64,000 bases of DNA from Sabellastarte sp. h YS-2021. Its lineage: Eukaryota > Annelida > Polychaeta > Sabellida > Sabellidae. Below, one piece after another: positions 32,601-61,939 of this stretch. The notes under the pieces are model-generated. The model saw nothing but the letters and a program-made list of their open reading frames with translations, did not search any database and was not told the DNA's origin. The DNA lies in the NCBI GenBank assembly GCA_964017235.1, contig OZ024933.1, forward strand, positions 8,001,962 through 8,065,961, in the 5' to 3' direction. Numbering within the stretch: position 1 is the first letter of the stretch; each line of letters starts with the position of its first letter. The translations under genes and the position numbers were made by a program.

Positions 32601-35600
32601 CTTACAGATGTTCTGATTATTCCTGTAGAAACAGAAATCAGTGTTAAAGGAAATGAAGAAATTACTAAGAATATTGACTATGAAAAATTTCTTTAGTTTG
32701 TCATAGTGATTTGTTCCCAAATAATGAATTCTGGTTTATCTGGTTTTAAGAACCAATTTTGATGCACTAAGAACTATGAGAGAGGTAAGATTTGAAGGAA
32801 TCCAGAACACTGCCACAACATCAAAATAATTCAGACAATCTAGGAAGGTACCATGATCAATGGTATCAACAAACACTAACAATTGGTCAAATAGCACCTT
32901 TGTGGCGGCCTCATCTCTAGCCAGAGTGTGATGAATTTAATTTTTAATCAACAGCAACACAGCATCTAGGCTGACTGTTTTTGACATTTAAGCCCATTAG
33001 ATACAACATAGTAATATAACTGGGAAGCAACCACTCACTGTATGGATGAAACACCAGCCTGACACATGTTGATATTTTTTTAATTTGTCAGGTGGCAGTG
33101 TGGCCTTTTTGAACACTCTATTGACAGCAGGAACATAAAATAAAAGCCAGTTTAGTGATTTAGGACATAAAATGTTGAAACACTTTTTAACCAAAAAGTG
33201 GGCCATGGATACAGGACAACGGATTTTGTGGTAATTTTATCTGAGAAAAAAAAGTCACAAAGTGGTTACCAAAACTTTTCAGAGAGTACTTTCAGATCTT
33301 TGGGAAAAGAGTCGAATGCAGATTGTTTGACCTGTAACAGTTTCTGAGAATCATGAGCATTTTCATTAACAATTCTGCAATAATTGTACTCATTCCTGTA
33401 AAGTAATGAGTGGCAATGGGCAATTTGCTTGCACAGTCTAGCTTGATTATGTGATGCGTTATCCTCATACTCTATCTGTCCAAACTGACCCCTGTGACAG
33501 CCTTTGCCACAGAACAAGAATCTGATAACTATTTAAGACCATCTTTGATGAAAGTATTGGACATCTTAGAGTGTTCAGCAAATGCAAACATTTAGATCAC
33601 TTGCTCATAGAGGTGTCTTGCTCATAGAGGATGCTAGAAGTATTTCCAGGGCATCTGACAATTGAACAGTTTACTATGCAAACTGTCTGGTTTTATATTT
33701 TGATATGGACAACAGGAAATATAACTTGACCTTGATACAGAAGGCTGTTCAAATGGTGATGAGTCAGCACTAGGGGATGACTTTAAATGAACTGGCCAAC
33801 ATTTGAAAGAACACTGATAGTAGTAGGAATGAGGATGAGATCAAGAATATGTCCATGAAGGTGTGTTGGTGTATTGACATATTGATTGATATTCCATGGC
33901 TCAAGACAATCAAGAAATTTAACACTGTCTTTGGAATTTGTATCAGCTCAGATATTTATGTGCCAATAGATTAAAAGAGATGAACGGAGTACAGGCACTC
34001 AAAAAGCTGGAAGAAATTATCACAAAATGCACTAGAAAATGAGTAGGGTGGCCGATAATGACATGCTATCAGAAAGGACTAGCCAATGAACCCATGTCAA
34101 TTACAATATTTTCAAGGATATGTAAGAATGACTGTCAACTATTTTAAATTGGATAATGTAATTGATGAAAAGGCAGCATGATAGGGAGTTATGTCTTATT
34201 ATGTGTTAGGATATATTCCTCCAAAAAATAAATAGGCCTTATTTATTTTGAATCATTGTTTTTAGGAAAATCTCAGGTAAAGAGAGGCAGTTCAAGAGAA
34301 TATGATGGGCTTAATCTGGATGATAGAGGGGCATCTATAAATGTTCCAGGTGTCTACCGTGATTTGCAAAGAAACACCCATGGTACTACAGGTAAACGTA
34401 TTAATAATGTTATTGCTGTGCTTGTAAAGTCATTGGATACAGTTTTAAGCAGACATAATGGTTTTCTAATTTTATATATCCACTTGTAGCACAAAATGCT
34501 GTATATCTTAGACCAATCAGGGCGTAGGAAGCAAGTTTTGGTTGGTGGGGCGCGGAACTAGATTGCACCGACATGACAGCCGTATCCCCAGACGGGCCAT
34601 TCCTCATGCCATAGGCATTGACTGGGTATTTTTGTAGTACCCATTTTGTGTGATTCACAATTATTAATTATCAGAATTAACTAAAGTCTTTTGTTAGGAT
34701 GTTATGTTAAGATGTCTAACAATTTTGGTTAAATTTACAGAATCTATTGCATGTAGGTAATATACAAATTCAAATGGTCTAACTAAAATATTTTAAGTTC
34801 CTTTACCAAAGGAAGTCTTTGTGTCAACAGTGTGACTGATATTAATGCTAAGTTTCCCCAACCTTGTCTGGGTACAGATTTACATATAGGCATCTCTGCA
34901 TTTGAAAGGTATTTCTAAAGTCTCGACTACATGTTTCCAGAACTTGTGACCTTTCCTTCAAGTGCCGAGCTGATACAAGACCTATTTTTAGCAAGTTTAA
35001 TCCCCAAACTGAGGGGGATGTATAATCATTGGACTGGCTTGGTCACACATTAAAGAAAGAAGAGTTTTCTGGGAAAAGTGTTATCAGCTGAAAAATTGGG
35101 TTAAAAACTTCTAGCACTTGTGACCTTTCCTTCAAGTGCCGAGCTGATACAAGACCTATTTTTAGCAAGGTTAATCCCCAATCTGAGGGGGATGTATAAT
35201 CATTGGACTGGCTTGGTCACACAGTAAAGAAAGAAGAGTTTTCTGGGAAAAATCTTATCAGCTGAAAAATTGCTCTACGTGAATTTGAAACTATATGTCA
35301 AGTTTTAAATAATTAGCAATACGGCAAATTAAATGCAGAAGATTACTATATGTATGATTTGGGTCTGCAGAACTGGAACGTTTTTTTTGCAAATGTTCCT
35401 TTTACAGATCATAAAAATAAATATTGTATAGTTCAAATAATAGCTTACACAGTGGTGCATGTGAGCAGTGGATAGATAAATGTAATTTCACCACATATTA
35501 TTGAGTTATCTGTAAAAATTTACATAACTTCAAAATTGGAGTTTAGTTCTGTTGCAAAAGTTGGGGGGCGAAAAGATATCCCCGCCCCTCGAACTTTATG

Positions 35601-38600
35601 GTTGGGATGGCGGCCGCCCCGCTGTCCCCCCCAGTTCCTACACCTATGACCAAGGTTCAAAAGGCGTTTTAAATTTAAAAGCTGAATTAATTTTGAGAGC
35701 ATAAAACAAAGTCATATAGAACACAGAGATCAGTTCTTCTGTGGAACAGAGAAGATAAAAAAATATGTTTCCTAACAATCAATATTATAAGAAAAGTTTC
35801 ACTTAGCTTTATTAAATTGAGTATCATAAGAAAATAAAGTAAAATAAACTTCACCCAGTGAACAAGAAAATATTTGACAATGGTAGATATATACTAATAT
35901 TATTTTTATACTTAAATGGACAGGAATTATCGATGCTTACTTATAAATTTGAAACACATAAAATACATTTAGAGATTATAGTTTGACTGTTACAGTCAAA
36001 ATATTAGGATGTATTTGCAGATGCAGAGGAATATGAAATCATTCCGGAAACAATTTTAACAGATGCAGCAACTATCGATTCAGGTGTGTGCTTAAACTTA
36101 TTCAGTTGTGTTTCCTTTTGATGCAACAGTTCCAATACCATTTTGCTTTGACTAGGTAAATGGAAGCAAATAATGAGTGGTACAAGCACATTACTTAACC
36201 TCGGAGAACTTTATCAGATTACTTTGAAATTTCTGTTTAAACACAATATCAGTCTGAGATTTCTCTGGAATCAGAATGTTATGAATGCATATGATACATC
36301 GCCCTACAATTTGGAACATTGAAATAAGTTAATATTAAATTTCTACTAGACTTAACATCAAATTTAGAACAATGTTTCGTTCATATTATGATGGGAATAT
36401 ACGAGTAAAGAAAGGTATGAAACCTAGAAAATATTTTAAAACGGTTGTTAAAACTGTGGTGCAGGAGTTATGGCTTTGCTCTCATATTATATAATGGTGT
36501 GAAGTAATGTTTTCACACCACTGGCCTTTTGGTATTTAGACAATTTTACTCGAAGGCAATGCAACTACTTGTCATCTTAACCATGAAAAAGTTATGAAAG
36601 TAAAAGTAGCGAAAATATACGATTAATAATGTTACCAATATTTTATCCTATGTATCAGTTTTCCATCCACATCCATATCATATGTTATGTTTTATGACTA
36701 GTATGATGGTTTCCTGATTAGGCTTGCAATCTCAATCTGATCCCAGAAAACAAGAAAAATTTGGATGATCAAAAAAAAATGCTTGAACTAAGAATACTAT
36801 AGTTGCCATGGAGTATACTATGACAAAAAAGGTTCACAGGACTGGTCACTATAGGGGTCACTGGAAAGGTCAAATTCAGTACTAATATCAATACTGACCA
36901 AGATGGATAGAGTAATTAAGACTTGTTACAAATAAAAGTGATATTTGTTAGACTGTTCAGAGAATGCTAGAGTTAGATGATATGATTATGAGGTCAGATT
37001 TAGAGTTGTTCCAAAGCAGAGAAGAAGGAGGGGGCTCATGTGACTTAGATTAGACTGTGGCAAAGGAGAGGGGAGGACAGGGGTCAATACCCCAATTTTT
37101 TGCTGAACTATGCCAGCCTACATTCAAAATTTTTATGCAGATGTGGCCAGAGATATTTACCCAGATAGAGTTCAACCTGACGCCTGACCATCAGATGCAG
37201 ACCACCTTTCACTAACAAGCCCTGACACCAGGCCTCAGGTTGGTCAGTATACGTGGCCACAGCAGACAGCTCCATCTCCAACCAGTACACCTTTAGGGTA
37301 GGTCAATCGACCATAAACCACATCATCCTTAAGGCATGTGATTCTATTATCAGGTAGAATCAAGGCGAATTTGTTGGTTGTCCCATCTGCGTCAAAGACT
37401 TGAAGAAGATAGAGCAGGCATTCAGGGAGTCATGAAACATGCCTCATTACATTGTGGCTTTAGATATCAAGCACATTCCCATCACATGTCCCATGGGAAC
37501 AAATAAGGGTTGTAATGGTTCTGCTGGCCCTACTGCAGATTAAAAGCATGACATTTCTGCAGCTAGATCCAGATTTTGCATTACATTTGTCTAAAACAGA
37601 GAGGGGAAAATCATTGGCTTCCCCCCAGCAGAGTCCATTGTGGATAACAGGCCCAAAGTTTATCATTTCCTTACATTGGTTGATGAAACCCTTTGATATC
37701 AAAGAGCAGATCTTCAATCACTGGAGAAGGTTTGTGGATGCTTTTGGTACATTGTCTAGCAGTTTTGGGGTGCTGCAATCCATGATGCAGCAGAAGCCAG
37801 ATGGTGGTGATGGTTTTTGGGATGATGGGATGGGATTATTGTTTGGGGATGGTTTATGGTCTTTGTGGTTCTGCACAATTTACTATAGACAAGATCTAGC
37901 AGGTGAGAGTTTCAACCAGAGAACACGGATGGAATGTTGTAGGGGAATCATTTTCCAAATCAGGAATGAAACCCTGTGAAACTGCTAGGGCATATTGATG
38001 TGTACTGGCTCTTTACTTCAGAAATGAAATATCTGAGCCTTGGCTGTTAGAGTTGATATAATAAAGCAAAATAGACTGCTTCAGTAATTTTTATAACTTT
38101 TTTAGCAGAAATACATAATTTTTCTTGTAATCGTATTGTATTTAATTGTTTATTTTAAATATGTTTATTGTATGTATATTTTGGTGAAAATGTATTGAAT
38201 GTTCTTGGAAGATTTGGCGGCCCCGAAAGGGCCTTAAAATTTACAGCTAATAGCTGGATAGAGGCTGCTGGGGGCTGGATAGACACTTTTGCAGTGTCAT
38301 CTTCTACTGTTCATCTCCCTGGTAATCTCGGGTAGTGCTGGTCTCTTGTAGAAGGGCCTGTGTTGTATTGAGGTTGATGCAGCTGTCAACAATTCAGGTG
38401 CTAGAGGTGCATTAGTGACCCAAATTAAGTGTCCACTGAGATTATCAAGGCGGAGTCAACAGGTGTTGGCGGGATGAGTCTGTAGAAGTTGGTCACGCTT
38501 TCTGATGATGAAACATGGCTAGTTCTTGGGATCTGCAGTGGTGAATTTTGGTGTGTTGCTGTGGAGTGGCTACATCTGTTTTTGGACTGGTTGCTGCTTC

Positions 38601-41600
38601 TGTTGTTGAACTGGTTGTTGCATCTGCTGTTGGAGGGCAGGGTGCATCTGTCATTTTACAGATGACTGCATCTGTTATTGCATGGACTGGTGGTGCAATG
38701 TCTACAGCTGAAGTGTCTGCTGTAGTCAGTCCTGTTTTTTGGAATGACATTGATGTTAAAATGTAGGCTAGGTCAACTAGGTAGTAGACTGGAATGTGGT
38801 ACACATGGCCTGTTGTAATAAACTAGGATGCACTTTAGGTTTTTTGGATCCATGCCAATTTCTCCCTTCAAATGATTCTATTGACAGGTTATTCCCTTCT
38901 GATTGAATCCAGTCACAATAGATGTCAGGTCATTCTGTTTTTTTTTTGTCGAATAACAATTGCTTTAGCTTGTGTTCCAGTAAGTCCAACTTCTATCACG
39001 TCTCCGAGGTTTCTAACTGGTACTTGGACTTACTAATGGGTAGTGTAGTGCATGGTTGAATACTTTGTGGGTTTTTTGAAAGGGATTGGGGAGATGTCGG
39101 ACACTGTCCTTGGCTCATTGGTCGATCCACGTTCACCACTATGTGGAAGTGACTCCACTGACATCCTATCTGTTGCTGTGGGCTGATTAGATTTGTCTCA
39201 TAGATCAGTTCTTTTTGAACAGAAATGTCACACTATGTTGGTGTTGGGGAAGGAAAAGTTCTGTTTCAGTCACTTATGCCAGTCAGTAAAAGGAGGAGTA
39301 ACTTGACCTGATTTAGTGTGTGTAAGCTTTCCAAATATTTTGTATTTGATTATTATTTAAAAGTGTTCCATTGTGCTTCCTGTTGGTTTGGACCTTTGTA
39401 TTCCACAAGATGCTTATTATACAAAAGTTAACCTTCAGAAAGTCTATATGTTTCATCTCTTGTTGCAAAGTGTATTACAAATACAGTAGAGCCTCAATTA
39501 CCTGGCCCTCTACTATCCAAATCTTCAGATTAACTAATCCAAAACTTTTCTATCTACCTTCATGTGTAATGTACTGTTTAGCATGAGCGATAATACAGGA
39601 TTTTACACATTGTCCGTAGCCATTAATTCTAGTGCTTTATACAACATAATATCCACGGAAATGCCTAACTTCTTTGATATGTAATACTATTGTTAATATA
39701 TTAAACTACTTCACCTGTGTCCATGGAAGTGTATATTTAAAGTTTTCTTCAATTATTGCCCACCTGCTAACCCATAGATAGTAAATATCTTGTCCCTTCA
39801 TCTATCTGAAACCCCTCAATTATCCGATCCAATTGCATGACCCCTATTGAGTTTGAATAATTGAAGTTCTACTGTATTTTCAAATCCAGGTATACAATCT
39901 AAGAGTTTGCCATAGGTTTGCGATCGAAATATCCATCTTGAAACACCATGCTCAACTCAAATTCTTTTCTCTCCCTGATATACTTTGCTACTCATATTCA
40001 GGGACATAATATAACCAAATTTTAACCAATTATCATAATATCTCTAATGCCCACTACTGATGCCTTTTTTGACCATTCTTTAATTAGATTCACCTTCAAT
40101 CTTACAACTTCTAGGTCCCAAACTGATGCTACTGTTACTTTTCGTAAAAACTGACAATTGACAAGAAAAGCTGATGCTTTGTACAGCCAATGTCACTCAA
40201 CCTCGTCAAGCCTGATTGACAAACATGCTCCACCTCAAACCAAACATGTCAAGATACAGCACATCGCAGGATGAATTGTATATAAAGAGATCAAGCTTTT
40301 GTAATGAAAGCTTTTGCCACAAAAATAAATCCATCTCCAGTAGATCATAATACATACAGAAAGTTCATCAGTAGAATAGAATCTGCATTTGAGCCAAATC
40401 AGCATAGACTTCAGGCCTGTTTGTTAAATTTATAAAGCCCCAATCTTCTGGATGATAGATTTGTTGAGTTTTTCACAGACAAATTGAACAAAATCAGCTC
40501 ACCTTTCCTTGTATCCTTCATTCTGCAAACACATCTCTTCTGATATTCCTCAGGGTTGTCATTCTCTCATCTAAGTTTTTTATATAACCACCCGACTGAA
40601 AAAAAAACTGTATTGACTGCCAGTGAAGTACAGGGTACAATTTAAAGAATCATAGACAAATCGGCCCTTTGCCAAATCGGCCCCTAAAATAAAATACTCT
40701 AGTCAACTCGGCCCCCAGGAAAAAATACCTTAGTCAAATCGGCACCCTGGAAATTACTGCACTTTCAAAAAATATATTAAACACATGACAAAAATAACAA
40801 TCTAATAAGAATCTAAATAAAATCCCTATAGCACTTAATCTCTTTAAAGTCAATTGACCTCCAATAAAACTTACACAAATAAGTGAGTAAAGGACAGAGA
40901 ATAAATTATATGGATTACGGTATCCAAAAATCCTTATTAATTACACTTCTGCTAATTACTATTCAAGTAGCTTTCACCCTTGATGTGATTATCAAATTGC
41001 ACTTATAATCAATCTAACATAAGTTAAAAGAACTTGGTGTAGTATCGAAATATCTTTGATATGTTAATTGCACTTTGAAAATATCAATATAGAAGTTGTC
41101 ACCCTTATGAAACAAACAAAGCATGATCACAAAGATCATTGTCATTAACCTACTACATGCGCCTCTGATGTAATATGCATACTAAATATCTGTCAATCTA
41201 AGAATCTGCCATATGAAGAAGATTAAGTGTTACAAAAGTAATCTAATTGCATTACATTTTAGTTTTTAACATGGGGGCCGACTTGCCCGGCCGAGTTTTT
41301 CAGGGGGCCGATTTGCTGAGGGCCACTTTGGCAAAGGGCCGAATTGTCCAGTTCCCCAATTTAAAATAGGCCTTATCACATACAAAATTATGAAACAATG
41401 CCAACCAGCTTACCTAAGTGGACTACTTTACCCCTACACCTCTTCTGAAAATACGAGACACAACAGCCCTAAACTGAACTTTCATCACATCCTCACCTTT
41501 GACCACAGAGTTCTCAAATCGCATGAACATGTTTCCAATTCCTTCTGTCATTACTCTTTCCTGTTCCAAATAAGAAATAGCCCCCAGCACTTCTTTCAGG

Positions 41601-44600
41601 AAACATTTGAAAGCTCACCCCTTTTCTCCACTTAATCTCTTTCCAGTTTGTGACACCAGAAACTCCTGACTACCAACCTCGACTGTCCCTGTATTACACT
41701 AATGACTAATATTTTTGTTAAGTAAGTGTAGTTCTTCATTGGGGTGGGGGGAGATATTGCACCTGCAAAGCAGTTGCTTAGATTAAATTAGAATAGATGG
41801 CTTTAAGATCAACATATGATCCAAAAATGTACTTGCAATCAATATGAGGGATTTGGTTTGCAAAACCTTATGAATGGAATATCTGATAAGGATTGGGAAA
41901 ATGTTGCGATAATTTCGTTTGAAATAATAATTCAAAGTGTTTGAAATTATTGCAATGGTGAACCACATATTTAATACAGATCACAAGCCTTGTGAACAGC
42001 GCGATTGTGGTTTGCACCGAAAAAGATGAAAAAGATTGAATTCCCAAAGAGAATATATTTAGAATCACAAGTCAATCACAAAGGAAGATCACCAGATTGA
42101 GACCGTTGTTTATAGCCTGGATTGTTTATAGCCTGGATTGTTATAAGATGTAACTAGCTTTTTTGATCCCCACAGTAACACAACAAGTTTATATAAGAAA
42201 TAGTCAAAATATTTACAGCAATTCATGACTAAAATATGGTTCTATCCTTCAGACAATCTTGAGGTGGTAACCGGCACAAGTAAGGTAACAGGTGAGTCAT
42301 TGTTACTAAATACTCTTCGGAACAGATTCTATACTGTTAATTTGAATGTTAAAACTGGATAAGAATTGGTGACCAAAACTGAATTTTAACACATATATGA
42401 CAGTCAAGTCGGTTATAGTATTACTCAATTTTCTCTGAATAATTTTCTGTTACTAATTGATACCATCTTTGGCAATACACATTATTAAATTGATAGATAG
42501 ACCACATAATTTTACAAATAACTTGAAAGGTTTTACGGAGTGGCTGCTGATTCATGTTTCACGGTTCAATAGTTTAGTGGTCTATCGGTCCATGTAGGTT
42601 ACAAACACTTACAGATCGGTGAATTATGAAAAACAATGGAAGAAAAATGCCAAACACAACCACTGTAATAAGTTTTACACACAAGAAGATTTGAAATGTT
42701 ACATGACTGTAAACTCACACAACTCTCACTATCACTTGAGCTGATAATTACAATTAGCTGCCGGTTATATCAATGGAAGGGATATTGCACTGAGTATGAT
42801 GGCGTGTCATTTTTAAAAGTGTTAATAATTCCACTCATAAGTCTAAGGACAAACTCCAGTTGGAAATTTTAAATGGATTTTGAGCCTATCTTTCTGCTTG
42901 CTGTTAAAACCATAAATCTGTCAGTTCTTGTGTGCATGTTTATTTTGGAAGTAGATTTATGTGTACTTTGTAGTGTGTGAAAGTTAGCAGATAATATAAG
43001 TACCAATTTCACCTATGCATGTAATGTGAAGTATATGTTACTTCTGTGTCCATGATGGGAAGGCTTTATAAGTAGCCTTGTCCCAGGTGGCAATATGTAT
43101 AGCATAAACACAACTGTTTGAATGCATTATAATTATTTTTATTTTTCATAATGTTCTCATATATTTATGTGGCTTAGCTAGCTCATGAGTCTCCCAGACA
43201 GGAAAGGCGTCTGGTATAATCTGCATTATGGCAAAAATATTTTGTGTTTGCATTCTGGTTTAGACACGCTGGAAGGCAAGGCTAGCTGACAAGTGTTTTT
43301 AAGTAATTATTGTGGTCATATTCCTGGTTGTAAATAAAAGTCAGTTATACAGAATGATATTTTTCGTAAGATATATAGTCAGTGCTTTTGTGTTTCAGTG
43401 TATATCTTTAATAAAATAGTTATGGTTATTGCTGTTTCCGTCATTATTTACTCAAAATCACGGATATATTAGCATTATTGAACCATGAAAACACTACACG
43501 GATCGATAGACTGTTAAGCTATTGAGGTGTGGCATGATAACATGACCCATTTGTACCTACCCTAAAAAACTTGAGTCAAGCTTGCTAAACAAAGCATATA
43601 AAATAAAATGGTTAACATTAAAATATCTTAATGAGGGGCAGTTGTGGACAGATAACTTCAGCTCAACTGGAAGAGCCGTTTTTTATGAGAAGGGAATATG
43701 TTACTAAAATTCACCAATTCAAAGTTTTAAAATGTGTATATTGCACACAAATCCCAGAATAAATGCTAAAAAACAACTTTATTATGAATGCGTATTATCT
43801 CGTGCTTAATTTGGTATATAAAGGTTGAACCTACCTTCAATACTTTTTAAACTACAAGCTCTTGAGTATGTGCTCGTGGATATGGAAATTAGGGCTTAAA
43901 AATTGGGTGACTTTGTTTGAGTACCCACTACAATAATATTTTTTTGGTCTGTCATTAACATTTTTAGTTATATGATAGCCTGATGTCTTTGGTTAAATGT
44001 GGTCAAGATTTAAAGTCATTATCCCAATCTGAAGAGCCTACCTTTAGAAAAAGACAGGAGCTACAGAACCAATTAAAGTTGTTGTTTAGAAGGAACTACA
44101 TGTGCACTATAAGGTCTGAAAATATAAACCTTTAATGATTTTCTTCAACAGAATGACAGGCAAAAGTTTCTGTCCGAAACAGAAAATGTCACATCTGAAT
44201 AGGTTTATTTTAACCTGTGAAGATGTATTGTCGTGATTGACGGTTTCAAAAGCAATATTTCAGCTTTATTTTGTATTATTTTGTTTTAGGGAATATGAAA
44301 CAGTGTACAGACATGAAAGTTTATTGGAAAAAATCTTTTCTTCACAAAATGTAAATTTTACTTCCAGTGACATTGATAGATGAAATTAATGATCATTATT
44401 ATGATTTACCATGATGGTCAAATGCCCTTAGTTGCAATCCAGATCAGAAAAAAAGGCTATTGGAAGGATCACTTCTGGAATAGTTTGACACCAATGGAAC
44501 TCTGCAGATGTGACCAAATGCTCTTCAGATGTGACATATTGCTCTTCAAATGTGACAGTAAATAATTTTCTCCCAACATTTTCCCCATTCTTTAATTTGT

Positions 44601-47600
44601 GCAAATCCTTTATACAAAGGTCCTCAACTTCCAATATCTTGTCACATATTAGAATAAAAAGAAGTCTGAAATGTTGACCTTATTTAACATGTCACATCTG
44701 AAGAGCACTAACCAATTGGACAATTGCTAATGCACAGAATGGCCCACCAAACAACAGAAAAAGTCATTCTGTGTTTCTACCAACAGGACCAGCCTAGTAC
44801 TGTCCATTCGCTATGTGGCTAGAAGACTTCCTGTCTAAACAGCGTGACATCATACCATCTTTTTTTATGTTTAAACCTATTTAGACCCCTGGTAAGCTGA
44901 TAGTGGGGTCAGTTGGGAGGGCCTTACCTGTTCATTGGGTAAGGTATTAACTTATATGCAATACGAAAGAGATGTTCCAGGAGAGGATGCCTCTCCGACC
45001 CTTAAGCCTGTCTCTGTGGAAACTAACCAAGAGACAAGTAAGATTCTCATCTCTGCTACTATTGATGGGTAAATTTCCCAGTTTGTCTGCACTGGCTGAC
45101 CTGTAGCCATGAACTGTACTTGGCTGCAACTTCCTGTCCTGGAACAGATTCAACAGGAAGTGAGTAACCTTTGCCCTGAAGTCCACCTTATTACTGTGGC
45201 ACTACTTTGTAAAAATGGTCCACTTAGCCTCATAGACTGATTTGGTTGAGACTCTCTGAGGAGCTTCATTTCGTGCTGCCACTGCCTCAGAGAAACCTTG
45301 CTCATTGATAACTGAGGATCCAGGAGCAAGACATTGAGATTTAGATTTGCTAGAATCCTGTGAGGGATCTGACTGAATGGCTGGGTTAGCAGATTGGGCA
45401 GGTACAGCAGGATTTGACCTGACATAGTCATTAGGTCCCAAAACCAGGGCATGGTGGGCCACCCTAGAGCAATCGGAATGATTCTCTTGCACAGATAGTC
45501 CTGAAACTTCTCAAGCACTTTGCCCTAGATGGCTACTGGTGGGAAGGCATGAATGTCCAGATCTTCCCACAGCAGACTGAGTGCCACCTGCTTTCTGGGA
45601 GGGAGCAGGTTTCCCTTATAGTGTGCTCTCCTAAGTAAGCGCCCCACCCTTCTTTTGATACATCTGTAAAGATTGGCAGAGAATGCCTGATTGTAGTGAT
45701 TCTGGAACCTTCCAATTCCTTTTCAGCTGCCACTGCATAGGTCTCATATGCAGCCGTCCCAGGTGGACCTATTTTTCTGTAACTTTCAGTAGCCCTTATC
45801 AGTGACATGAGTTGCTTGACCTGACAGGTCGGTTTGGAGAGCAGTTCCTGAATCTGAAGGTTTGCCAGGGCTGTAGGGTGGGCGACAGGATCTGACCTTG
45901 CCCTCCTTGAACTGGTAACCTATGAAGTTGAACACTTGTTTAAGTTGTTTGGGGTCCAGTTCTGATTTTTTCCTGTTTACCAACCTAGCTCTTGACACAG
46001 AGCTACTAGAGTATGTGTATGCTGGAGATGGGTTTGGTGGGATCTGGCTCTGACCAACCAGTCATTTAAGTACTGGTGGATTCTTATACCCTTGTGTAAG
46101 GTCATCAATTTGACATCACTACTGTAAATTCCATGGGTGTTGTGAATTGGTGGGACTGGCCCTGGATGTAAAAATGTTCAGTCTGGCAGATTTATTATAC
46201 CAATTGAAATTATACCAGGAAATTGAACTGGAATCCTTGTCTTTGCTGGTGTGTAAACTATACTCAATCCTGAGATTTGGCAGTCCTGGTGTACTGGTTA
46301 CATTGCAAACCGGCAGCCTCCAAACTCCTAGAAGGGTAGGCTTCAACTAGTGTGAGTTTATCCAACTTCTTACACAACCAGTCATCTGTCGGTATGTTGA
46401 CTGAACCCATGACCCATGAAGGATCTGATGCCTCTCTCATTGTCTCTCTGTAGGTTTGCTCCTCTGAAAGAGCTTGGTCAATGTCGGCTGAAGTCGGACC
46501 CTGATCTAGGTCAGACAGCTCCATTTCCTCTGCTTGGCAAACAGTGAGAGGTCGGTCAGTGCAATTGACATTGAATCAGTGTCCTTCTAGGTAGCTGCCT
46601 CTGTAACCAGTGTACTGGACAACTGTAACTGCATAGCAGGGACCTGGTCGGTGCTGGCTTTGTTGACAGACTGGGGTCGGTCCGCAAGCTGAGTTCGAAG
46701 CACATCAACAGGCAGAGGTCTGTCAACAAGCTGAGTCAGTGTAATAAAAGGGTCAGCTGCCTTCACTGCACCAGCTGGTGGAGCCCTTGTTGGTGTCACT
46801 TTCTGGAAGGTCAGTAATGGTAGAAAACTTCTGGCCAACAGCATTGTCTCCAGCCTTGAGAAATGTTCTGACCATTTCTGATCTAGAGCTTCTAATTACA
46901 GTTGACGGCTTTGAAGACTTAGAAGGCCTAGAATGCTTTTTGGCCTTATCCTTGTCTTTGGCCAGTGTCTTCTCAGGTGATTTCTGCTTCTTTTGTTCAT
47001 TCACAGACCCTAAACTGAGACTACAGTTGAATCTATTAGGGTCTAACTAGTATCATCAGCAGCAGACACATCAGACTTGCCATCTTGTTTTTCTTTCTTC
47101 AGTTTGTAAGATGGTGGGGCCAGTTATGCTCACTGATCAGTGGTTAGGATATTACAGTGAGAACAGTCTTCTTTCAAAACACAATAGTTGTTGCCCTTAC
47201 CCTTGTCACAATAACATGCACAGTGGGTTGTTACTATTAAAGGTTGCCATTGAATGATCTCATGTCCCTCTCTTCTGTCCTGGTGATACCATGTTGAGAA
47301 GTAACAATCACTAGTATATGTAGAAAATATGAAATTAAAGTTCAAATCCGCAATCAGCAAATTCTTCAGTTTCTGAAAGCTTCCCAAGAAACACATCTGC
47401 ACAGTACACGTACCACATGGAAAAGATGTGATGTCACACTGACTAGACAGGAAGGAAGTGTGCCACGCCACCTAACGAATGCACAGTATTAGACTAGTGT
47501 TGCCAGTGGAAACACAGGGCGAATTTTTCTGTCATTTGACGGGCCGGACTGCTCCGACAAGATTAGCAATTGTCCATTGGATAAGATGTATTGACATAAT

Positions 47601-50600
47601 AAACACTAATAGTTTAAAACATGTTTGAAATTTATTATCATGTTGCAAAATTTAACATCTGAAGAGAAAATTGTCACATCTTAAGAGTAGTCACATCTGA
47701 AGAGCCTTTTATTTCATCTAAAAATGGCACACATGTTGTCAGTTATTATTATTTATTACTTTATTGGTGCAATTTAAACATTTCTAAGCTTCAACAAGAA
47801 AATAAACACTAAAATTTTTAAAAAGTCACATCTGAAGAGCTATAAGTTACATCTGGAGAGCATGTGTCACATCTGAAGAGTTTGCTTTGGAGACCTACAT
47901 ATGTGAAACCTGTACAATCATCCTAACATTGGTTCTATTAGAGGTAGACCACCTTTAGGTTAACACCTGCTAAATGTTTCAACTTTTTGGATATAGTACT
48001 TTTCTTTTTACAAGAAACAAAATGTGTTTTTTCAATAGGTGCCAAATATGCAAAAATAGAAAGCTGTCAAAAAATTTAACCAAGTTCCCATACATTTATA
48101 ACTTCATTCAAATATGTTAGGGTGCTCAATATAGTATTGGCATAATTAAATTTTAAAATTATTAAAAATGAGAATTTCATGTTGTGTCACATCTGAAGAG
48201 TTTCCAGACACACCTTTATATTCTTCAACTTAAAATATACAAAACGACAAAAAGTTATCTTTTCATTATTGGAAGTAGATACTAGGGTCATAGTAGTATC
48301 TAAATAAACACTTAGGTTTAATCTCCCGAAGACTTTAAAATTTCACCTCCAGGGAACACCTTTGGGTCATGTTATCGTGCAAACACCCCTATTGAACCAT
48401 GAAACACAGATCAATAGCCACAGCGAAGGTTTTATTTGCTGTACAACATCATTCAAGCTTACTCTGTCAAAGTTTTGTTTATACCAAATTTGGCAATTTT
48501 TGTGTCCACAAACAACACATAATTCACCCATGTTTTGTGTGTGGTGGAATTAAACTCCATCTAGATATACACTATTTTCATAATATGAATACAACTTTTA
48601 CATTATTATGTATTAATTTAATAGCAGTCTGTTTCTGTAAAACAGAATAAGAAACCATCAGTATTTGATATGTAAATAAATATATTTTAAGGCTTAAATA
48701 CATGGGCTAAGTTAAAGTTGCAAATTGATAAATAAAAGAGAAGATAATAAATCATTAAAGATCTTGAAACAGTACAAATTCATTCAGAGATTGAGGAAAA
48801 AGAACCATTCAAAGCCACAGTTCTACTGCCATTGTCTTAGTATTACGATCTATTGACAGGTGAAGTAGGGTATGCAAATACTCCTGAAACAGTTGTCTCA
48901 GATGCAGCAAGTGATGATTCAGGTATGTGTTTAAAGTTATTCTGGTACATAAAACAATATTTGAGATTGTTTTCAGTTATTGGAGAATTGTAAATGTCTG
49001 CTGAATTGTTGAAAGTTCTTACCGTATGGGTAAGATATATTATGACTGCTTACTTTAAACATGTATTTTATAAGCAAAATATTAACCCTGCTCAACGAGA
49101 CATACTGAAGTAAGTTTATGTACAAATTTCTTTCAGCCAATACATCATATTTAACATAATGTTTCAGTTATATTTTGATTGGTACTAAAGTAAAAATAGG
49201 TATAAACTAGTTACAGATCAATCTGGAAGTTGCAAAAAGTGAGGTTTATTACCTTTGTACAAAGGAGACAAGGTTTAAAGTATATAAAGGAACTTTTTAA
49301 CTGTGATGCTGGAGTTATATCCTTGCATACTTATTATATAATGGTATTAGTTAACATGTGGGCATTGCTAATATAAGGGTCATTATTCTATAAAACAAAA
49401 CAAAAAATTAAACATGCCACTACAATTGCACATAAAAGGTTAAAATACTTAAAAGACGAAAAGAGCATGAACAAAAGAAATATATTATATCCCATGAATT
49501 TGCATATTTTCATTATCACTATCAGAACGGTAGTAATAACAAGTTAGAAAATATACACTGTCCAAACCCTGTACCCCAGTACTGTGGTGCCATTTTGAAT
49601 TCAGATTTTGAAGGGTAAACAAGAATTTTATTGCCCTCCCCCCTCCCTGTTACACTGAGACTACGGGAAGCATTATGCAGGTCAGATATGACCTCCAGGC
49701 GGCTCCAAGCTGACCTTGGATGACCCCCTCTCGATTTTGACATATAACAAGACACAGTATTGTAGTTCAAGGCAGGGCCAGGCAATTCCCTGGTAGCCCC
49801 CTCTCACAAATTACTCACTCATACTAAATTTAGGCAAGACCAGGCTCGACCCTGGTACCCCCTCTCTGACATGTCATTATTAAACCCACATAGGGTATTA
49901 TATACGACAATTGTGTATAGTGAGCATGAGTTACTTATTGTATTAACACGAGTTGGTACACACATAGCTAATTATAACTTCAAAACTATAACCACAATTG
50001 AGCTCAAATTTGGTGGGCAGGTATTTCATGGGGTACAGATGGATTCCTCCAAATTTGGTGTAATTTGTTTGAAAATTAAAGTCAGGAGACAGGTTTATAA
50101 ATTTTTAATTTGGCATATACAGTGAAACCTGCTTGTCTTCAAAAATCAATATCATGACAGGATTTCTTCCTCATGATTTGTGTCCAATCAGGTTTTTTTC
50201 TGTGGCTGTGAGTGTAATATGTAGAATTTGTAATCTAATGGTTGGTGTTCAATACCAGTCATTTCTAGAGTTGTTTTTTTTTAATTTCAGTTTTTAGGCT
50301 TTTTTTTGGCAAGTTCTATTAAAGGTTTTTTTAAAGAAATGAAAAAATTAAAACACAACATTTAAAATTTTGCTGTTCAAAAAAACTTTAAGCAAGATGA
50401 GGTGTCCAACTTGACAGATAATGATTTTCAATTTGGCATATACAGAGAAATCTGATTCTCTTTATCACATAAGTAAAAAATCAATATTTCGCTGTCTGAT
50501 GATGTCATTACTTAATGATGTCACAATGCAATTGTCATTGTGAGGTCACAAACCCTAGCTTGTGCTGTCGTTAAGTAATAATATTTCTTCTCATTAAATT

Positions 50601-52157
50601 TACGGCATGTCTTGGAATTGACATAAAGATAGTAAAGAGGGGGGTGGTGTATACGTCATGTTTATTTATTTCTGTTTTCTTTTTGTTTCAATTTCTTGAC
50701 ACTCCATCACAAAAAAAAATTACCCTGAGTGATTCTCACCAAGAAGTGGCTTTTAACCAATATTTTTACCTCTACCAGGAGTTTATGTTTTTGTGTGCTT
50801 TTTTGTGTATTTGTTTGTCTGTTTTTTGGCGTTTAGATTTCTCCAGAACTAATGAACAGATCTTTATTAAAAATTTTGTGGGTAGGACCTGGTCAAAGGA
50901 AGAAGTTACTAATTTTTGGGAAAGACCTGGATCATATTTTGGATACAAAAAATCATTAATTTTCATAGGTCTCATTCCAATGTATTTTAATGATTTTAGC
51001 TTTCTACTTGATATTTCTTCAAAAGTAATGAATAAATTTTGATGTCAAATTTTAAGTAGAACGGGGTTAGCCATGGGAAGGAGTGATTATATTTTAGGAA
51101 AGATCCAGTTAATATTCTGGATACCAATAAGCCGCCAAAATTTCTGGAAATGCCACCATGGTGGATGTGTGTTATACTTTATAGTCACATCAAGTCGAGC
51201 GTTTTGCTCTCTCAGAGTGCATCTTGTTATTATCTGTGATACTTCATTGTATGGTGTTTTTAAAACCTTTCAATTTTATTGAAAACTTTTAAAACTTTTA
51301 CCTTTTACATACTAACATGTAAATAAATTCCTCAAACCAGAATTTGACCTTCCTTTCACTTCCACATTTGACCGTTGCTTGACCTCTCACACTTGACCTC
51401 ACCTTCATTTAGGAAACTGAGAAAATATACACTGTCCAAACCCTGGTAATGTTGATGGAACCATTTCATTATCTGTACATCTATAATATAAAATTATTAC
51501 ATTAAGACATTGCCAAATATATTTCATGATTCCAAACTGTGTATATCTTGCAGACTATCTTGAGCCCGTAGCCAGCACTAGCCAGGCAATGGGTGAGTCA
51601 TTGTGTTATTGCAATTAAAATGCTCGAACTGCTTGAATGATTTTTTTAAGAATAACAATTAATGCCCAACAGACTTGATACTGGCAGATAAATGCTAGAT
51701 ATTTGGAATGTATTGAAGTTTAATTTTTAATACACAACATGGTTTAACTCTTTTCCCACAATATTGTTTTAGGTAAAATCATGTTTTGCTATGCCTTCAG
51801 AGCTTTTCTTGATAAAAAACTTCAGAATCCACTACAAAAATGTTAACTGTTTAACTTTCTAGGCTCATTTCTTATCATTTATCATGAAAAATCTGTCTTG
51901 GGAATACCTCAGAAAATGTTAATATAAATAATTTATTAAATTTATTGAGCTAAATAAATCTATATTTAAAGATAGAATGTAACATGTTCATCAAAAAAAG
52001 AAAATTTATATCATGAGTTTTAATGTTAATCATACTTTATGCTAGGATAATAATTAAAATTGGTCAGCTCAGAAATAATTAAAACACATTATTTTATTAT
52101 TGCAGTATAACTAGAAGTAAACATTATGATTTGTTTTGCACAGAAGCAAAGGTCTAA
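17585..52157 (+). CDS. Ig/FN3 transmembrane receptor with tyrosine-motif tail (15 exons)
   Basis: Joined exons: 17585-17603, 18481-18864, 21263-21577, 21898-22209, 22496-22669, 23502-23636, 24073-24384, 30390-30695, 32032-32142, 34266-34391, 36021-36083, 42253-42291, 48860-48922, 51554-51592 and 52144-52157. All 14 introns are GT-AG and phase 1, and the 2412-nt sum keeps one frame to TAA. Layout by residue: signal peptide 1-21; Ig-like domains about 22-134, 135-239, 240-343, 344-446 and 447-550; FN3 551-652; transmembrane helix about 660-682; cytoplasmic tail 683-803. N-glycosylation sequons are abundant outside. Tail tyrosines lie in YDGL, YRDL, YEII, YANT and YLEP contexts. This is a single-pass plasma-membrane receptor or adhesion protein; a role in recognition plus phosphotyrosine signalling is inferred. 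No specific ortholog is recognised. Introns hold most of the transposons of the window. Exon structure is strongly supported; the first exon is less certain. Confidence 0.85.
18481..18864 (+). CDS. Exon 2: rest of signal peptide and Ig-like domain 1
   Basis: The acceptor is ATTTTGCAG. The domain shows SADLSC, IEWF (core Trp) and DIGLFQC (the D-x-G-x-F-x-C signature before strand F). This is a V-like set with all core residues. Donor GTAG|GTAAGT. Confidence 0.85.
21263..21577 (+). CDS. Exon 3: Ig-like domain 2
   Basis: 105 codons. Core residues are VVEYVC, VVLWF and QVKCVL. An extra Cys sits in DYAYCTDPP. Sequons NAT, NMT, NAS and NDT suggest heavy glycosylation. Acceptor GATTTCAG, donor GTAAGT. 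Confidence 0.85.
21898..22209 (+). CDS. Exon 4: Ig-like domain 3
   Basis: 104 codons. Cysteines lie in KSVECKASNANPSSS and KPAKCKLQW, a pattern of C2-type domains in nephrin/IRRE-like proteins. The usual strand C Trp is replaced (VDMEFLI). Acceptor TTATACCAG, donor GTAAGC. Confidence 0.85.
22496..22669 (+). CDS. Exon 5: first half of Ig-like domain 4
   Basis: 58 codons with NITC, SGNPSDPKS and YYYEWM (core Trp). The second half of the fold lies on the next exon, so this domain is split while the others are single-exon. Acceptor TTGCTCAG, donor GTATGT. Confidence 0.85.
23502..23636 (+). CDS. Exon 6: second half of Ig-like domain 4
   Basis: 45 codons carrying LVLNNLGYKEMAGTYRC, a strong strand E-F signature (L-x-x-x-D/A-G-x-Y-x-C). 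Acceptor GTTTTAG, donor GTAAGT. Together with exon 5 it makes one 103-residue domain. Confidence 0.85.
24073..24384 (+). CDS. Exon 7: Ig-like domain 5 without the cysteine pair
   Basis: 104 codons. The fold is recognisable from YTIDW (core Trp) and SQLGNYTVRVIN (G-x-Y-x-V in place of G-x-Y-x-C). Both canonical cysteines are replaced: strand B reads LTVKF. Four sequons are visible (NLT, NYT, NVT, NYT). Acceptor TATTTCAG, donor GTGAGA. Confidence 0.8.
24690..24975 (+). mobile_element. CR1/L2-like LINE 3' fragment in the exon 7-8 intron
   Basis: One frame reads KSFLYGATKLWNDLPLEI then LPCFKR and a stop. This is the C-terminal end of the reverse transcriptase ORF of CR1/L2-type LINEs. It is 5'-truncated, with further stops. 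Confidence 0.7.
25083..25240 (+). mobile_element. Probable tRNA-derived SINE
   Basis: GACGCAGTGGTAACACACTC resembles a polymerase III A box, and GTTCAAACCC (25133-25142) fits a B box at suitable spacing. The tRNA fold is not intact and the sequence continues into AT-rich tail. No clear target duplication was found. Confidence 0.5.
25368..27866 (-). mobile_element. Tx1/L1-like LINE, 5'-truncated and frameshifted
   Basis: The minus strand carries ORF2 pieces in order. At 27837 is an SMSQYFKTLFK block before the RT. Near 27300-27370 is GMLVLIDIEKAFDFVSY, the first RT aspartate motif. Near 27000-27045 is FADDT, the catalytic box. At 26831-26403 is NNWNKRSLTPIGKITIVKTF then WSNKPDKINRDVMR, which is typical of L1/Tx1. 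At 26412-25999 and below is the C-terminal region with a Cys motif (NRPNCCLC) near 25725. Frameshifts separate most pieces. The 5' truncation point lies at about 27866, abutting a gypsy-derived 75-bp repeat. Confidence 0.8.
27866..27940 (-). repeat. 75-bp gypsy leader repeat, copy 2
   Basis: Matches 29466-29540 in the same orientation with about seven mismatches, starting TGTCCTCC and ending GGTCTCTTGT. It lies downstream of the gag relic and may be the primer-site region of a second element. Confidence 0.75.
28150..29540 (-). mobile_element. Ty3/gypsy-like retrotransposon fragment: leader and gag
   Basis: From 29540 down the minus strand there is a leader with TTGGTGACTCC, resembling the first bases after an LTR and primer-binding site in some gypsy elements, then gag. 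Protease and pol are missing, and the fragment is followed at 27866 by a second copy of the leader and a LINE. It lies within the long exon 7-8 intron of the receptor. Confidence 0.7.
28153..29446 (-). pseudogene. Gypsy-like gag with two CCHC zinc knuckles
   Basis: An in-frame ATG at 29446 opens a Q/P-rich N-terminal region with one stop. The retrotransposon gag core follows at about 28950-28700 (PFKLSQFSGDPQENPSRF, AARTWFETL). After a frameshift near 28700 come LWCSFCGKQGHLLKNC and VCFKCGKTGHIQRNC, both fitting C-x2-C-x4-H-x4-C. Gag would form the capsid and bind RNA. The stop and frameshift make this copy non-functional. Confidence 0.85.
29541..29885 (-). repeat. Putative LTR of the gypsy-like fragment
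   Basis: It lies directly upstream of the leader. On the minus strand it would start near TGTGTTATTATG (29880) and contains a TATA-like TTTATATAAGG near 29650. No second LTR was found, so the limits are guesses. Confidence 0.4.
29886..30389 (-). other. Intron segment with an unassigned minus-strand open frame
   Basis: An 83-codon open frame at 29989-30240 is rich in charged residues (KADIKKLESESDNDLSDNLE). It has no domain that I recognise and could be a transposon relic or chance. Confidence 0.3.
30390..30695 (+). CDS. Exon 8: fibronectin type III domain
   Basis: 102 codons beginning PPEKPMNV and including ITIGW (core Trp), GGSEQHFKILYRERG and LYAKTEYEIIVVAINQY, the FN3 signature (L-x-x-x-T-x-Y-x-I-x-V-x-A-x-N). 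It is membrane-proximal, as in nephrin-like and sidekick-like receptors. Acceptor AATTTTAG, donor GTAGGA. Confidence 0.9.
30696..32031. other. Intron 8
   Basis: AT-rich intron. No transposon or RNA gene is recognised. Confidence 0.5.
32032..32142 (+). CDS. Exon 9: transmembrane helix
   Basis: 37 codons encoding a hydrophobic run TIITMGISLGLMATIIFIGS followed by VWYKTRKSPR, a basic stop-transfer anchor that puts the C-terminus inside. Acceptor CATATAG, donor GTACAG. Confidence 0.9.
32160..34000 (-). mobile_element. CR1/L2-like LINE relic in the exon 9-10 intron
   Basis: Minus-strand pieces run in order. The end of the endonuclease is near 33840-33930 (FLDCLEPWNINQYVNTPTHL then HILDLIL). The spacer is at 33266-33517 (RLCKQIAHCHSLLYRNEYNY). 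RT remnants follow near 32800-33100. The C-terminal thumb region is near 32280-32580 (LHHIQHSLARIIINNTKYSH-like, then ITPV). This order is that of CR1/L2/Jockey-type ORF2. Many stops and frameshifts are present. Confidence 0.7.
34266..34391 (+). CDS. Exon 10: proximal cytoplasmic tail with two YxxL motifs
   Basis: 42 codons. Tyr702 lies in REYDGLN and Tyr720 in GVYRDLQ. Both fit YxxL, with 14 residues between Leu705 and Tyr720. That is slightly longer than the classical ITAM spacing (6-12), so it is ITAM-like at best. Acceptor TTTTTAG, donor GTAAAC. Confidence 0.85.
34392..36020. other. Intron 10 with a tandem duplication
   Basis: Contains the 174-bp tandem repeat described separately. Short GTAGGAA-rich G/C patches near 34520 and 35640 are in opposite orientation and might be degenerate transposon ends. 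Confidence 0.4.
34942..35272. repeat. Two-copy tandem repeat, period 174 bp
   Basis: Copy one (34942-35098) and copy two (35116-35272) are nearly identical over 157 bp, starting ACTTGTGACCTTTCC and ending CAGCTGAAAAATTG. A 17-bp spacer separates them. Few mismatches imply a recent duplication. Confidence 0.9.
36021..36083 (+). CDS. Exon 11: tail cassette unit A, copy 1
   Basis: 63 nt, 21 codons, phase 1-1. Encodes AEEYEIIPETILTDAATIDS; Tyr736 lies in YEII. It has the same length and phase as exon 13, with matching PET, TDAA/SDAA and DS positions. Confidence 0.85.
36700..39300. other. Intron 11 region with transposon relics
   Basis: The plus strand carries a Harbinger-like relic (37105-37830). 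The minus strand at about 38490-39250 shows broken, proline/threonine/glutamine-rich coding-like sequence (VPVRNLGDVIEVGLTGTQAK) that I cannot assign. It may belong to the same or another transposon. Confidence 0.35.
37105..37930 (+). pseudogene. PIF/Harbinger-like transposase relic
   Basis: Near 37454-37505 the frame reads ALDIKHIPITCPMGT, resembling the first catalytic block of Harbinger DDE transposases (ALDGKHxxIxxP). Further on, in another frame, comes LHWLMKPF and then FVDAFGTLSSSFGVLQSMMQ at about 37728-37790. The latter resembles the block that normally reads VENAFGILxxRF with the catalytic Glu; here it is VDAFG. Multiple frame changes show that it is inactive. Terminal repeats were not found. 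Confidence 0.5.
39484..39874. mobile_element. Pogo/Tigger-like MITE
   Basis: A 391-bp element with terminal inverted repeats CAGTAGAGCCTCAATTA at the left and TAATTGAAGTTCTACTG at the right. It is flanked by TA dinucleotides (39482-39483, 39875-39876), as for Tc1/mariner/pogo insertions. Internal TATCCGA-like words also match this family. It has no coding capacity. Confidence 0.7.
40330..41640 (+). mobile_element. CR1/L2-like LINE relic, split by a MITE
   Basis: A stretch near 40440-40490 reads RFVEFFTDKLNKI, the linker between endonuclease and RT. After a deletion of the RT, the C-terminal part LPVKYRVQFK (about 40617-40646) continues past the MITE at 41366 with IGLITYKIMKQCQPAYLSGL and SENTRHNSPKL. 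This is typical of the C-terminus of CR1/L2 ORF2. It lies inside intron 11 of the receptor. Confidence 0.75.
40638..41365. mobile_element. MITE with CGGCCC-rich inverted repeats and CAATTTAAA duplication
   Basis: The 710-bp element 40647-41356 is flanked by CAATTTAAA at 40638-40646 and 41357-41365. Its ends are inverted copies: GACAAATCGGCCCTTTGCC on the left, and its complement ending GGGCCGAATTGTCC on the right. AAATCGGCCCC-like words repeat several times inside each end. An 8-9 bp duplication points to a hAT-like or Mutator-like family. Confidence 0.85.
41641..42252. other. End of intron 11
   Basis: AT-rich sequence before exon 12. It contains a short direct repeat, TTTATAGCCTGGATTG (about 42109 and 42125). 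No gene is recognised. Confidence 0.4.
42253..42291 (+). CDS. Exon 12: tail cassette unit B, copy 1 (tyrosine lost)
   Basis: 39 nt, 13 codons, phase 1-1. Encodes DNLEVVTGTSKVT, homologous to DYLEPVASTSQAM of exon 14, but Tyr is replaced by Asn754. Acceptor CCTTCAG, donor GGTGAGTCATTGT, the same donor context as exon 14. Confidence 0.85.
42292..44187. other. First part of intron 12
   Basis: AT-rich intron without recognised element before the motif-repeat cluster. Confidence 0.4.
44947..45518 (-). pseudogene. DIRS1-like tyrosine recombinase N-terminal remnant
   Basis: Upstream linker sequence (45518-45300) matches the DIRS1 pol end (LLYLPNLLTQPF). The recombinase N-terminal domain reads VYEAKWTIFTK, LLNLFQDRKLQPSTVHGYRS and LLVSFHRDRLKGRRGI. 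The C-terminal catalytic domain with R, H-x-x-R and Y is missing. Confidence 0.75.
45533..46000 (-). pseudogene. DIRS1-like RT/RNase H remnant
   Basis: RLVNRKKSELDPKQLKQVFN, FIGYQF and KEGKVR mark the end of the RT. LPIFTDVSKEGWGAYLGEHT marks the RNase H start with its first catalytic Asp (TDVS for TDAS). The RT palm with its YxDD box is absent. Confidence 0.75.
46265..47300 (-). pseudogene. DIRS1-like gag remnant
   Basis: Includes CDKGKGNNYCVLKEDCSHCN near 47160-47220, a lysine-rich stretch (46753-47004, KKQKSPEKTLAKDKDKAKKH), LDQKWSEHFSRLETMLLARS near 46830-46890, and acidic C-terminal sequence at 46264-46524. Its order resembles DIRS1-type ORF1. Frames change several times. Confidence 0.6.
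48860..48922 (+). CDS. Exon 13: tail cassette unit A, copy 2
   Basis: 63 nt, 21 codons, phase 1-1. Encodes EVGYANTPETVVSDAASDDS. Tyr770 lies in YANT, which fits the Y-x-N preference of Grb2-type SH2 domains, unlike YEII in exon 11. Acceptor TTGACAG, donor GTATGT. Confidence 0.85.
48923..51553. other. Intron 13, partly homologous to intron 11
   Basis: About 600 bp after exon 13 resembles the start of intron 11; for example, a GGAGTTAT...TTATATAATGGT block occurs near 49308-49345 and 36466-36500. The rest is an insert framed by a 25-bp direct repeat. Confidence 0.6.
49547..51445. repeat. 25-bp direct repeats flanking a 1.85-kb insert
   Basis: GAAAATATACACTGTCCAAA plus CCCTG occurs at 49547-49571 and again at 51421-51445. 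The sequence between has no recognised ORF and is absent from the paralogous intron 11. This is either a transposon with long target duplication or a local duplication. Confidence 0.6.
51554..51592 (+). CDS. Exon 14: tail cassette unit B, copy 2
   Basis: 39 nt, 13 codons, phase 1-1. Encodes DYLEPVASTSQAM; Tyr788 lies in a DYLEP context, a candidate SH2/PTB docking site. Acceptor ATCTTGCAG, donor GGTGAGTCATTGT. Confidence 0.85.
52144..52157 (+). CDS. Exon 15: last four codons and stop
   Basis: The acceptor TTTTGCACAG joins in phase 1 to give EAKV and TAA at 52155-52157. The short coding part is supported only by phase and splice signal. Confidence 0.65.
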
Positions 52158-53735: not shown

Positions 53736-54102
53736 TCATATAACTGCTTTAACTCTTAGTATAAATGTAATGCAATGAAATGAGTATAAAATGAAGGGTG
53801 CACCTGGGTAAAGGGTGCATTGAGAGGGCATACCCTCAAACAAACATATTGATGCCTGCAGGGTTGAGTGTAGGGAATACCCAAATATAAGATAGTTCCT
53901 GGCGTTTGTGCCATTACTTAATGGATCCCCCATCCAATGTAAAATGCTAAACTTCATGTTCTTTGTGAGTAATGTCTAGGGACTGTAGACTTATCAGACT
54001 GGAATTTCTGAAGATACAATAATGTTCATACATTCAATTCCTGATCGGCCTTTTGGTTTTCTCCTGTATATTAGAGGCCATATAGGTTGCAATTTATTAT
54101 GT
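53736..54102 (-). pseudogene. Penelope-like element, 3' part (GIY-YIG endonuclease)
   Basis: Minus strand from 54102: IINCNLYGL, a stop, then YTGENQK, matching the GIY-YIG core of Penelope-like retroelements (usually INCxxCGLxYIGET). After frame breaks, MKFSILHWMGDP and YSLHSTLQASI match the end of that domain (ILEWI, WIxxLxTLxPxGIN). Continuous with 59652-59959 once the Ngaro-type insertion is ignored. Stops show that it is a relic. Confidence 0.7.
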
Positions 54103-54621: not shown

Positions 54622-54707
54622 CCATATAAAAATTTGACTAAACAGATAAAAAGAATAAAACCAGTTTAAAATAATACTATTAGCCTTTCACCGGGAGGGA
54701 GGGAGGG

Positions 54708-54937
54708 AATTTTTAAACATGTCCTCCTTGTTTCATTGTTCCTGGCCAACTGAAGCCCCTATTTTATGAATTTCTCTCCTTCTGAATGCCCAACCAATCA
54801 CATTCTCCGACACATATGCCCTTGTTTTGCAGATGTGAACCCCACTTGGGGGGTACTAACCCCCAAAACCCCTTATACCCCCGCCTGCCCCTGGGATGAG
54901 GGACTGACCTCCATGATGCCTTATACACCATTACTGA
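54708..54937 (-). repeat. Ngaro-type copy 3 internal repeat A2
   Basis: 230 bp matching 59422-59651 with one difference (TTTCTCTCC versus TTTCCCTCC). Abuts B1 at 54937/54938. Confidence 0.95.
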
Positions 54938-55456: not shown

Positions 55457-55471
55457 AGCCCAATGAGAGCA

Positions 55472-56474: not shown

Positions 56475-56481
56475 ATTATCA

Positions 56482-61925: not shown

Positions 61926-61939
61926 TGAAGGGAAAATGA

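Follow-up and report, generated by a model that had tools for sequence, protein, structure and literature searches.

Tandem duplication of a two-exon segment in the predicted cytoplasmic tail of an immunoglobulin/fibronectin-type receptor

Background

Downstream of the transmembrane exon of a predicted receptor gene, two short exons, here called A and B, are seen twice in the order A-B-A-B. Did this arrangement arise by duplication of a genomic segment, and what would a second pair contribute to the protein? The initial annotation of the locus described a tandem duplication of a two-exon phosphotyrosine cassette, which had lengthened a signalling tail and whose copies now differ in docking motifs. 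According to a 2002 study, as stated in PMC9013439, tandemly duplicated exons occur in about 10% of animal genes. Below, the window is the whole 64-kb stretch of DNA that was analysed.

Structure of the receptor gene

The gene model was built by hand and comprises 14 exons on the plus strand, with predicted splicing. It contains 802 codons in a single frame with no internal stop. The predicted protein consists, in this order, of a signal peptide, about five Ig-like domains, a fibronectin type III (FN3) domain, a transmembrane segment, the products of the tail exons T1, A1, B1, A2 and B2, and that of a short last exon.

The signal peptide and the Ig-like domains are encoded by six exons (18465..24384, plus strand), of which E4 and E5 together form one domain, and E2 and E3 are Ig-like by cysteine pattern only. 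Pfam matches above the cut-off in the joined protein are Ig_3 (4.7e-10), I-set (2.3e-8) and fn3 (6.5e-10, in the FN3 exon at 30390..30695, plus strand, phase 1-1); V-set (6e-4) is below the cut-off. When the segments were scanned singly, five of the eight (E2, E3, E4, E5 and T1) had no Pfam match at 0.1. The transmembrane exon (32032..32142, plus strand, phase 1-1) contains a basic stop-transfer sequence KTRKSPR. It is followed by the first tail exon, T1 (34266..34391, plus strand, 126 nt, phase 1-1), which reads REYDGLNLDDRGASINVPGVYRDLQ and contains the motifs YDGL and YRDL. The proposed terminal coding exon (52144..52157, plus strand) encodes (E)AKV followed by TAA. It has an in-phase acceptor, tttgcacag, after an intron of 551 nt following B2, and remains a weak prediction.

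The predicted protein has the features of an IgSF/FN3 transmembrane receptor, the transmembrane segment and signal peptide having been read by eye. A PDB sequence search yielded eight matches at E up to 0.01, to Ig/FN3 proteins, titin and contactin-3 among them; these matches do not name the receptor family. The arthropod-type Dscam layout has 10 Ig and 6 FN3 domains, whereas about five Ig domains and one FN3 domain are present here, and the Dscam FN3 model scores 0.0034 (18.1 bits against a cut-off of 39). Kinship to Dscam is suggested by nothing beyond such weak FN3 matches. The gene content points to an animal source. Class 1-1 modules are usual in animal exon shuffling, as described in PMC8001218, and thus the phases of the exons are expected rather than surprising.

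Two pairs of related exons

Exon A1 (36021..36083, plus strand, 63 nt, phase 1-1) encodes the peptide DAEEYEIIPETILTDAATIDS, whose first D is split over the intron; its acceptor is tttgcag and its donor CAG/gtgtgt. Exon B1 (42253..42291, plus strand, 39 nt, phase 1-1) encodes DNLEVVTGTSKVT, which has no tyrosine. The second pair consists of A2 (48860..48922, plus strand, 63 nt, phase 1-1), encoding GEVGYANTPETVVSDAASDDS, and B2 (51554..51592, plus strand, 39 nt, phase 1-1), encoding DYLEPVASTSQAM. All four exons are flanked by AG and GT. The introns following B1 and B2 share the start gtgagtcattgt and are alike in their first 12 bases. The A2 acceptor scores low (-0.1), similarly to those of E2 (-0.7), E3 (-0.3) and the transmembrane exon (0.1). 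The lengths, order, equal phase, peptides and donor contexts given in the initial annotation are all correct, and its coordinates are exact to the base.

The relatedness of the copies, also noted there, is confirmed by several comparisons. A1 and A2 are identical at 44 of 63 nt (about 70%), and B1 and B2 at 27 of 39 (about 69%). The fused peptides DAEEYEIIPETILTDAATIDS-DNLEVVTGTSKVT and GEVGYANTPETVVSDAASDDS-DYLEPVASTSQAM share 15 of 34 residues, and their local score of 71, against a shuffle mean of 22, was reached by none of 2000 shuffles. Self-BLASTN of the window aligns the A exons with their flanks (35980-36103 with 48819-48942, 71.8%, E 4e-15) and the B exons with theirs (42123-42303 with 51433-51604, 64.5%, E 4e-9). 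The exons are significantly alike within one gene, as is the case in tandem exon duplication.

Stop-free phase-1-1 stretches bounded by AG and GT were scanned for copies on both strands of the window, with 148 candidates of A length and 240 of B length. A1 and A2 score 97-100, and the next-best candidate of this length 13; B1 and B2 score 57-58, and the next-best 14. When splice sites were not demanded, the scores are 103-106 versus 29 for A and 63-64 versus 27 for B. Thus no close third copy of A or B was found on either strand of the 64 kb. Derivation of A from B was considered and rejected, as the scores were reached by 615 and 1494 of 2000 shuffles.

Homology in the adjoining introns

Absence of intronic alignment beyond the exons had been named at the outset as the observation that would contradict a duplication. 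Such alignment is present, in stretches over some 600 nt after A: the intron following A1 (36084..36680, plus strand) is homologous in stretches to 48923-49524 after A2. The introns were compared with the exons removed and against dinucleotide shuffles; the finer bracketing, with 500 shuffles, was also done without splice-site bases.

The 701 nt following A (36084-36784) have an alignment score of 57.5, where shuffled sequences average 21.9 (z 10) and none of 300 attained this score, so that the adjoining intron was copied together with the exon. The slice 300-600 nt after A, taken alone, was likewise reached in 0 of 300. The best ungapped block there, 36452-36507 with 49299-49354, is 76.8% identical over 56 nt. 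Taken as the nearest 24, 54, 94, 194 and 294 nt, the region after A gives 13, 71, 288, 73 and 0 of 500 shuffles, and the signal is patchy until the 294 nt are taken together. Before A, the nearest 28, 38, 58 and 98 nt give 1, 1, 1 and 0 of 500, and longer stretches are not significant (198 nt, 29 of 500; about 320 nt as a whole, 126 of 300).

The intron end before B1 (42123..42252, plus strand) resembles 51433-51553, and this is a weaker case than the A flank. The 330 nt of intron alone give 2 of 300 shuffles, and stretches of about 40, 60, 100, 150, 200 and 330 nt give 53, 8, 40, 1, 5 and 7 of 500. Homology past the B donor stops after about 12 nt; the introns after B do not align, either over 301 nt (30 of 300) or at six lengths (88 to 303 of 500). 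None of the mismatched pairings, namely four intron controls and three involving the region downstream of T1, is significant (35 to 293 of 300; z -1.4 to 1.3). The intron between T1 and A1 has a single weak 50-nt match to that between B1 and A2 (E 0.004), which was not used as evidence, and the B1-A2 intron has no match at E 0.01 to anything after B2.

Judged from the sequence, the two pairs arose when a segment containing two exons was duplicated in tandem in the genome. The evidence that intron was copied too comes chiefly from two regions, one 200-600 nt downstream of A and one comprising the 100 nt upstream of it. The duplicated unit begins about 100 nt upstream of A and ends just beyond the B donor, unless subsequent turnover removed further homology. 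The introns are 6169 nt (A1-B1), 6568 nt (B1-A2) and 2631 nt (A2-B2) long, so that gains or losses since the duplication account for much of their current length.

Two further suggestions concerning the 56-nt intron block were dropped. It was not taken as an unusually conserved element, since 72.5% identity is seen over the 447 aligned nt of the intron, a comparison made by percentages. Nor is it a known RNA, as Rfam at the gathering threshold gave no match in the window and ARAGORN no gene.

Other repeats in the window

The B1-A2 intron contains an inverted repeat of about 160 nt (44709-44863 and 47421-47583, 72%) around minus-strand ORFs, perhaps a mobile element that helped to enlarge this intron. 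Two ORFs scanned within this region had no Pfam match. The intron before A1 contains a tandem repeat (34935-35272, unit 174 nt, 1.9 copies) that is younger than the exon duplication, because its copies are 95% alike.

A minus-strand mobile element at 54096-59656 has tyrosine-recombinase domains (Pfam Phage_integrase 1.3e-6, SAM-like 5.8e-8), a 527-nt direct repeat (54096-54621 and 54930-55456, 99.6%) and a second repeat (54625-54942 and 59338-59656, 87%). We take this layout to be like that of DIRS/Ngaro retroelements. Tandem arrays whose units measure about 48, 60 and 31 nt adjoin one another at 61667-62304, and a short CCCTAA-like array at 1724-1784 resembles an interstitial telomere repeat.

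Tyrosine motifs and the origin of the tail

The tyrosine motifs are YEII in A1, YANT in A2 and YLEP in B2. B1 has asparagine at the position of the B2 tyrosine, and the two codons, aat and tat, are one base apart. The term phosphotyrosine cassette in the initial annotation could apply to A1, A2 and B2, as putative sites, and overstates the case for B1. The Src-family optimum is pYEEI, which YEII of A1 resembles. Consensus motifs given in PMC10279719 are pYxNx for Grb2 and pYxx(P/L) for Crk; YANT of A2 fits the former and YLEP of B2 the latter. SH2 docking is the most likely use of these predicted tail sites, and the particular partners are motif guesses.

T1 contains YDGLNLDD, strikingly like what we take to be YEGLNLDD of vertebrate CD79a. 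By eye, the tail does not contain an ITAM, the consensus of which is YxxL/I-x6-8-YxxL/I (PMC12058738): YDGL and YRDL of T1 are 14 residues apart, outside x6-8, and the A and B exons have only one YxxI, namely YEII. Also by eye, T1 and A2-B2 both have 17 residues between their tyrosines and 11 between the second tyrosine and the end of the exon, perhaps by chance. T1 as an ancestral fusion of A and B was not accepted, as the alignment scores are below the shuffle means (reached by 1258 and 1965 of 2000 shuffles).

The account that best explains the locus as a whole, and that we consider probable, is head-to-tail duplication of a tail exon pair followed by drift of its motifs, with putative SH2 docking. 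A genomic segment with two neighbouring small tail exons was copied head to tail, giving A1-B1-A2-B2. As all phases are 1-1, a single mRNA could include both pairs and keep the frame, and the cytoplasmic tail would gain 34 residues per pair, with one or two tyrosines among them. The copies then drifted to the present motifs, YEII and YANT in the A exons and a single tyrosine, that of B2, among the B exons. Engagement of the ectodomain may lead to phosphorylation of the sites by a tyrosine kinase, and different SH2 proteins may dock: Src-family-like on YEII, Grb2-like on YxN and Crk-like on YxxP. The claim that the duplication lengthened the tail is supported by the exon and intron homology, by the equal divergence of A and B and by the one open frame that runs through both copies after the transmembrane exon.

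Alternative explanations

The pairs may be alternative rather than additive, so that transcripts contain either A1-B1 or A2-B2, or skip single exons, and the tail is switchable. All four exons are symmetric and any subset of them keeps the frame, the low score of the A2 acceptor would fit optional use, and tandem duplicates are linked to mutually exclusive use in PMC9013439 and PMC9741552. However, symmetric exons do not force exclusivity and, since the homologous A1 and A2 are separated by B1, pairs would have to be skipped jointly for exclusive use. Moreover, a shared RNA docking site was not found for one 70-nt intron block per copy: the common score was reached in 17 of 100 shuffles and those of the single blocks in 40 and 84 of 100, and the top-scoring shared site overlaps with the first block. 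Alternative pairs are possible but on the whole unlikely.

The divergence of the copies bears on whether both pairs are used. Between them, dN and dS are 0.35 and 0.53 by NG86, 0.36 and 0.65 by LWL85, and 0.43 and 0.60 by maximum likelihood, with dN/dS of 0.55-0.71. Differences are distributed over codon positions as 9, 12 and 10, with no bias, and the amino-acid identity of the copies equals that under a random-substitution null (P 0.59), so that constraint on the peptide sequence is not demonstrated. Absence of stops is weak evidence, because a stop arises in 63% of the random-substitution trials. Constraint on exon length is demonstrated, as judged from the copies, by the distribution of indels: the 102 exon nt contain none, and 47 gap events were counted in the 563 intron nt that align (Poisson P 2e-4), where the intron rate comes from two score-maximised aligned stretches and may be inflated. 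Exon identity (70% and 69%) is close to that of the alignable intron (72.5% and 69.8%). The claim of a signalling tail with differing docking motifs is consistent with the sequence, as YEII differs from YANT and Asn from YLEP, but the substitutions between the copies show no clear amino-acid constraint.

The same values would fit a state in which just one pair reaches the protein and the other is out of use or in decay, as would the missing tyrosine of B1 and the low A2 acceptor score. On the other hand, eight splice sites and the frame are intact at dS of about 0.5 amid frequent indels, and we consider a decaying copy improbable. The four symmetric exons might be combined in cell-specific sets that switch between Src-like, Grb2-like and Crk-like outputs, with rapid and possibly adaptive divergence of motifs, dN being not far below dS. 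Such a combinatorial docking tail is doubtful.

That A and B were duplicated independently is very unlikely. The intron stretches that separate the A flanks from the B flanks (36684-42123 versus 49524-51433) show no clear alignment, the best local score being just 21 without a shuffle control. However, A and B are equally diverged, which argues for a single event, their order and orientation are kept, and one event is simpler. Finally, an assembly artefact, with two haplotypes of one region set in tandem, is an error known in heterozygous genomes and can practically be dismissed here, as about 30% of exon sites differ, dS is about 0.5 and the introns are 6169 versus 2631 nt long, too far apart for alleles.

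Comparison with known systems

As in the tandem exon duplications described in PMC9013439 and PMC9741552, homologous exons stand in tandem inside one gene. However, these descriptions stress mutually exclusive exons, whereas here the unit is two exons (ABAB), all of them symmetric, and additive inclusion is possible. In B7-H3, too, tandem exon duplication in an Ig-family gene led to a longer protein, but there the Ig domains of the ectodomain were doubled (PMC3172298) and here the cytoplasmic tail. The duplicated H2 exon of COE came to be included together with the original, according to PMC2394523; COE is a DNA-binding factor, and there the asymmetry of the original exon meant that a new donor site was required, whereas the exons considered here are already symmetric.

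Modular tyrosine tails of Ig-type receptors are described as well. In arthropod Dscam, as described for shrimp, small exons, some of them optional, together encode a tail in which SH2-binding and YxxL motifs are predicted; the account in PMC6851185 names no duplicated tail exon pair, whereas here a pair is doubled. PECAM-1, an adhesion receptor of the Ig type, has a tail that contains tyrosine motifs and is alternatively spliced, and its variants without exon 14 do not bind SHP-2 (PMC5664058). Its motifs, as described there, are of the ITIM type, it has six Ig domains, and no sequence relation to the present receptor is shown. The CEACAM receptors likewise have tail tyrosine motifs over very short exons, but their ITAM is split by a phase 0 intron and PMC2110893 describes exchange between genes, not duplication within one. 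Oyster CgIgIT2 is an invertebrate receptor with five Ig domains, a transmembrane segment and a tyrosine-based tail motif; no FN3 domain is named in the description in PMC11999971, and the likeness to the receptor here is one of layout. That review calls the motif an ITAM, and a title in its reference list speaks of an inhibitory receptor.

No direct precedent combining tandem exon duplication with a cytoplasmic phosphotyrosine segment was found among the open PMC papers listed, which is no proof of its absence in print; the match found for exon duplication and SH2 tails concerns IL2RG. The receptor described here joins two known features, exons duplicated in tandem and a tyrosine tail built from modular exons.

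Conclusions

Duplication of a tail exon pair alone changes no established view. The event is real, yet gene evolution of this kind is ordinary; the duplication is old and the copies have since drifted apart. The locus is a clean case in which the intracellular wiring of a receptor can grow by copying of a small in-frame exon pair, and homology between the introns can still be seen. Should both pairs be in use, the locus would allow a direct look at whether short linear docking motifs are free to diverge once they have been duplicated.
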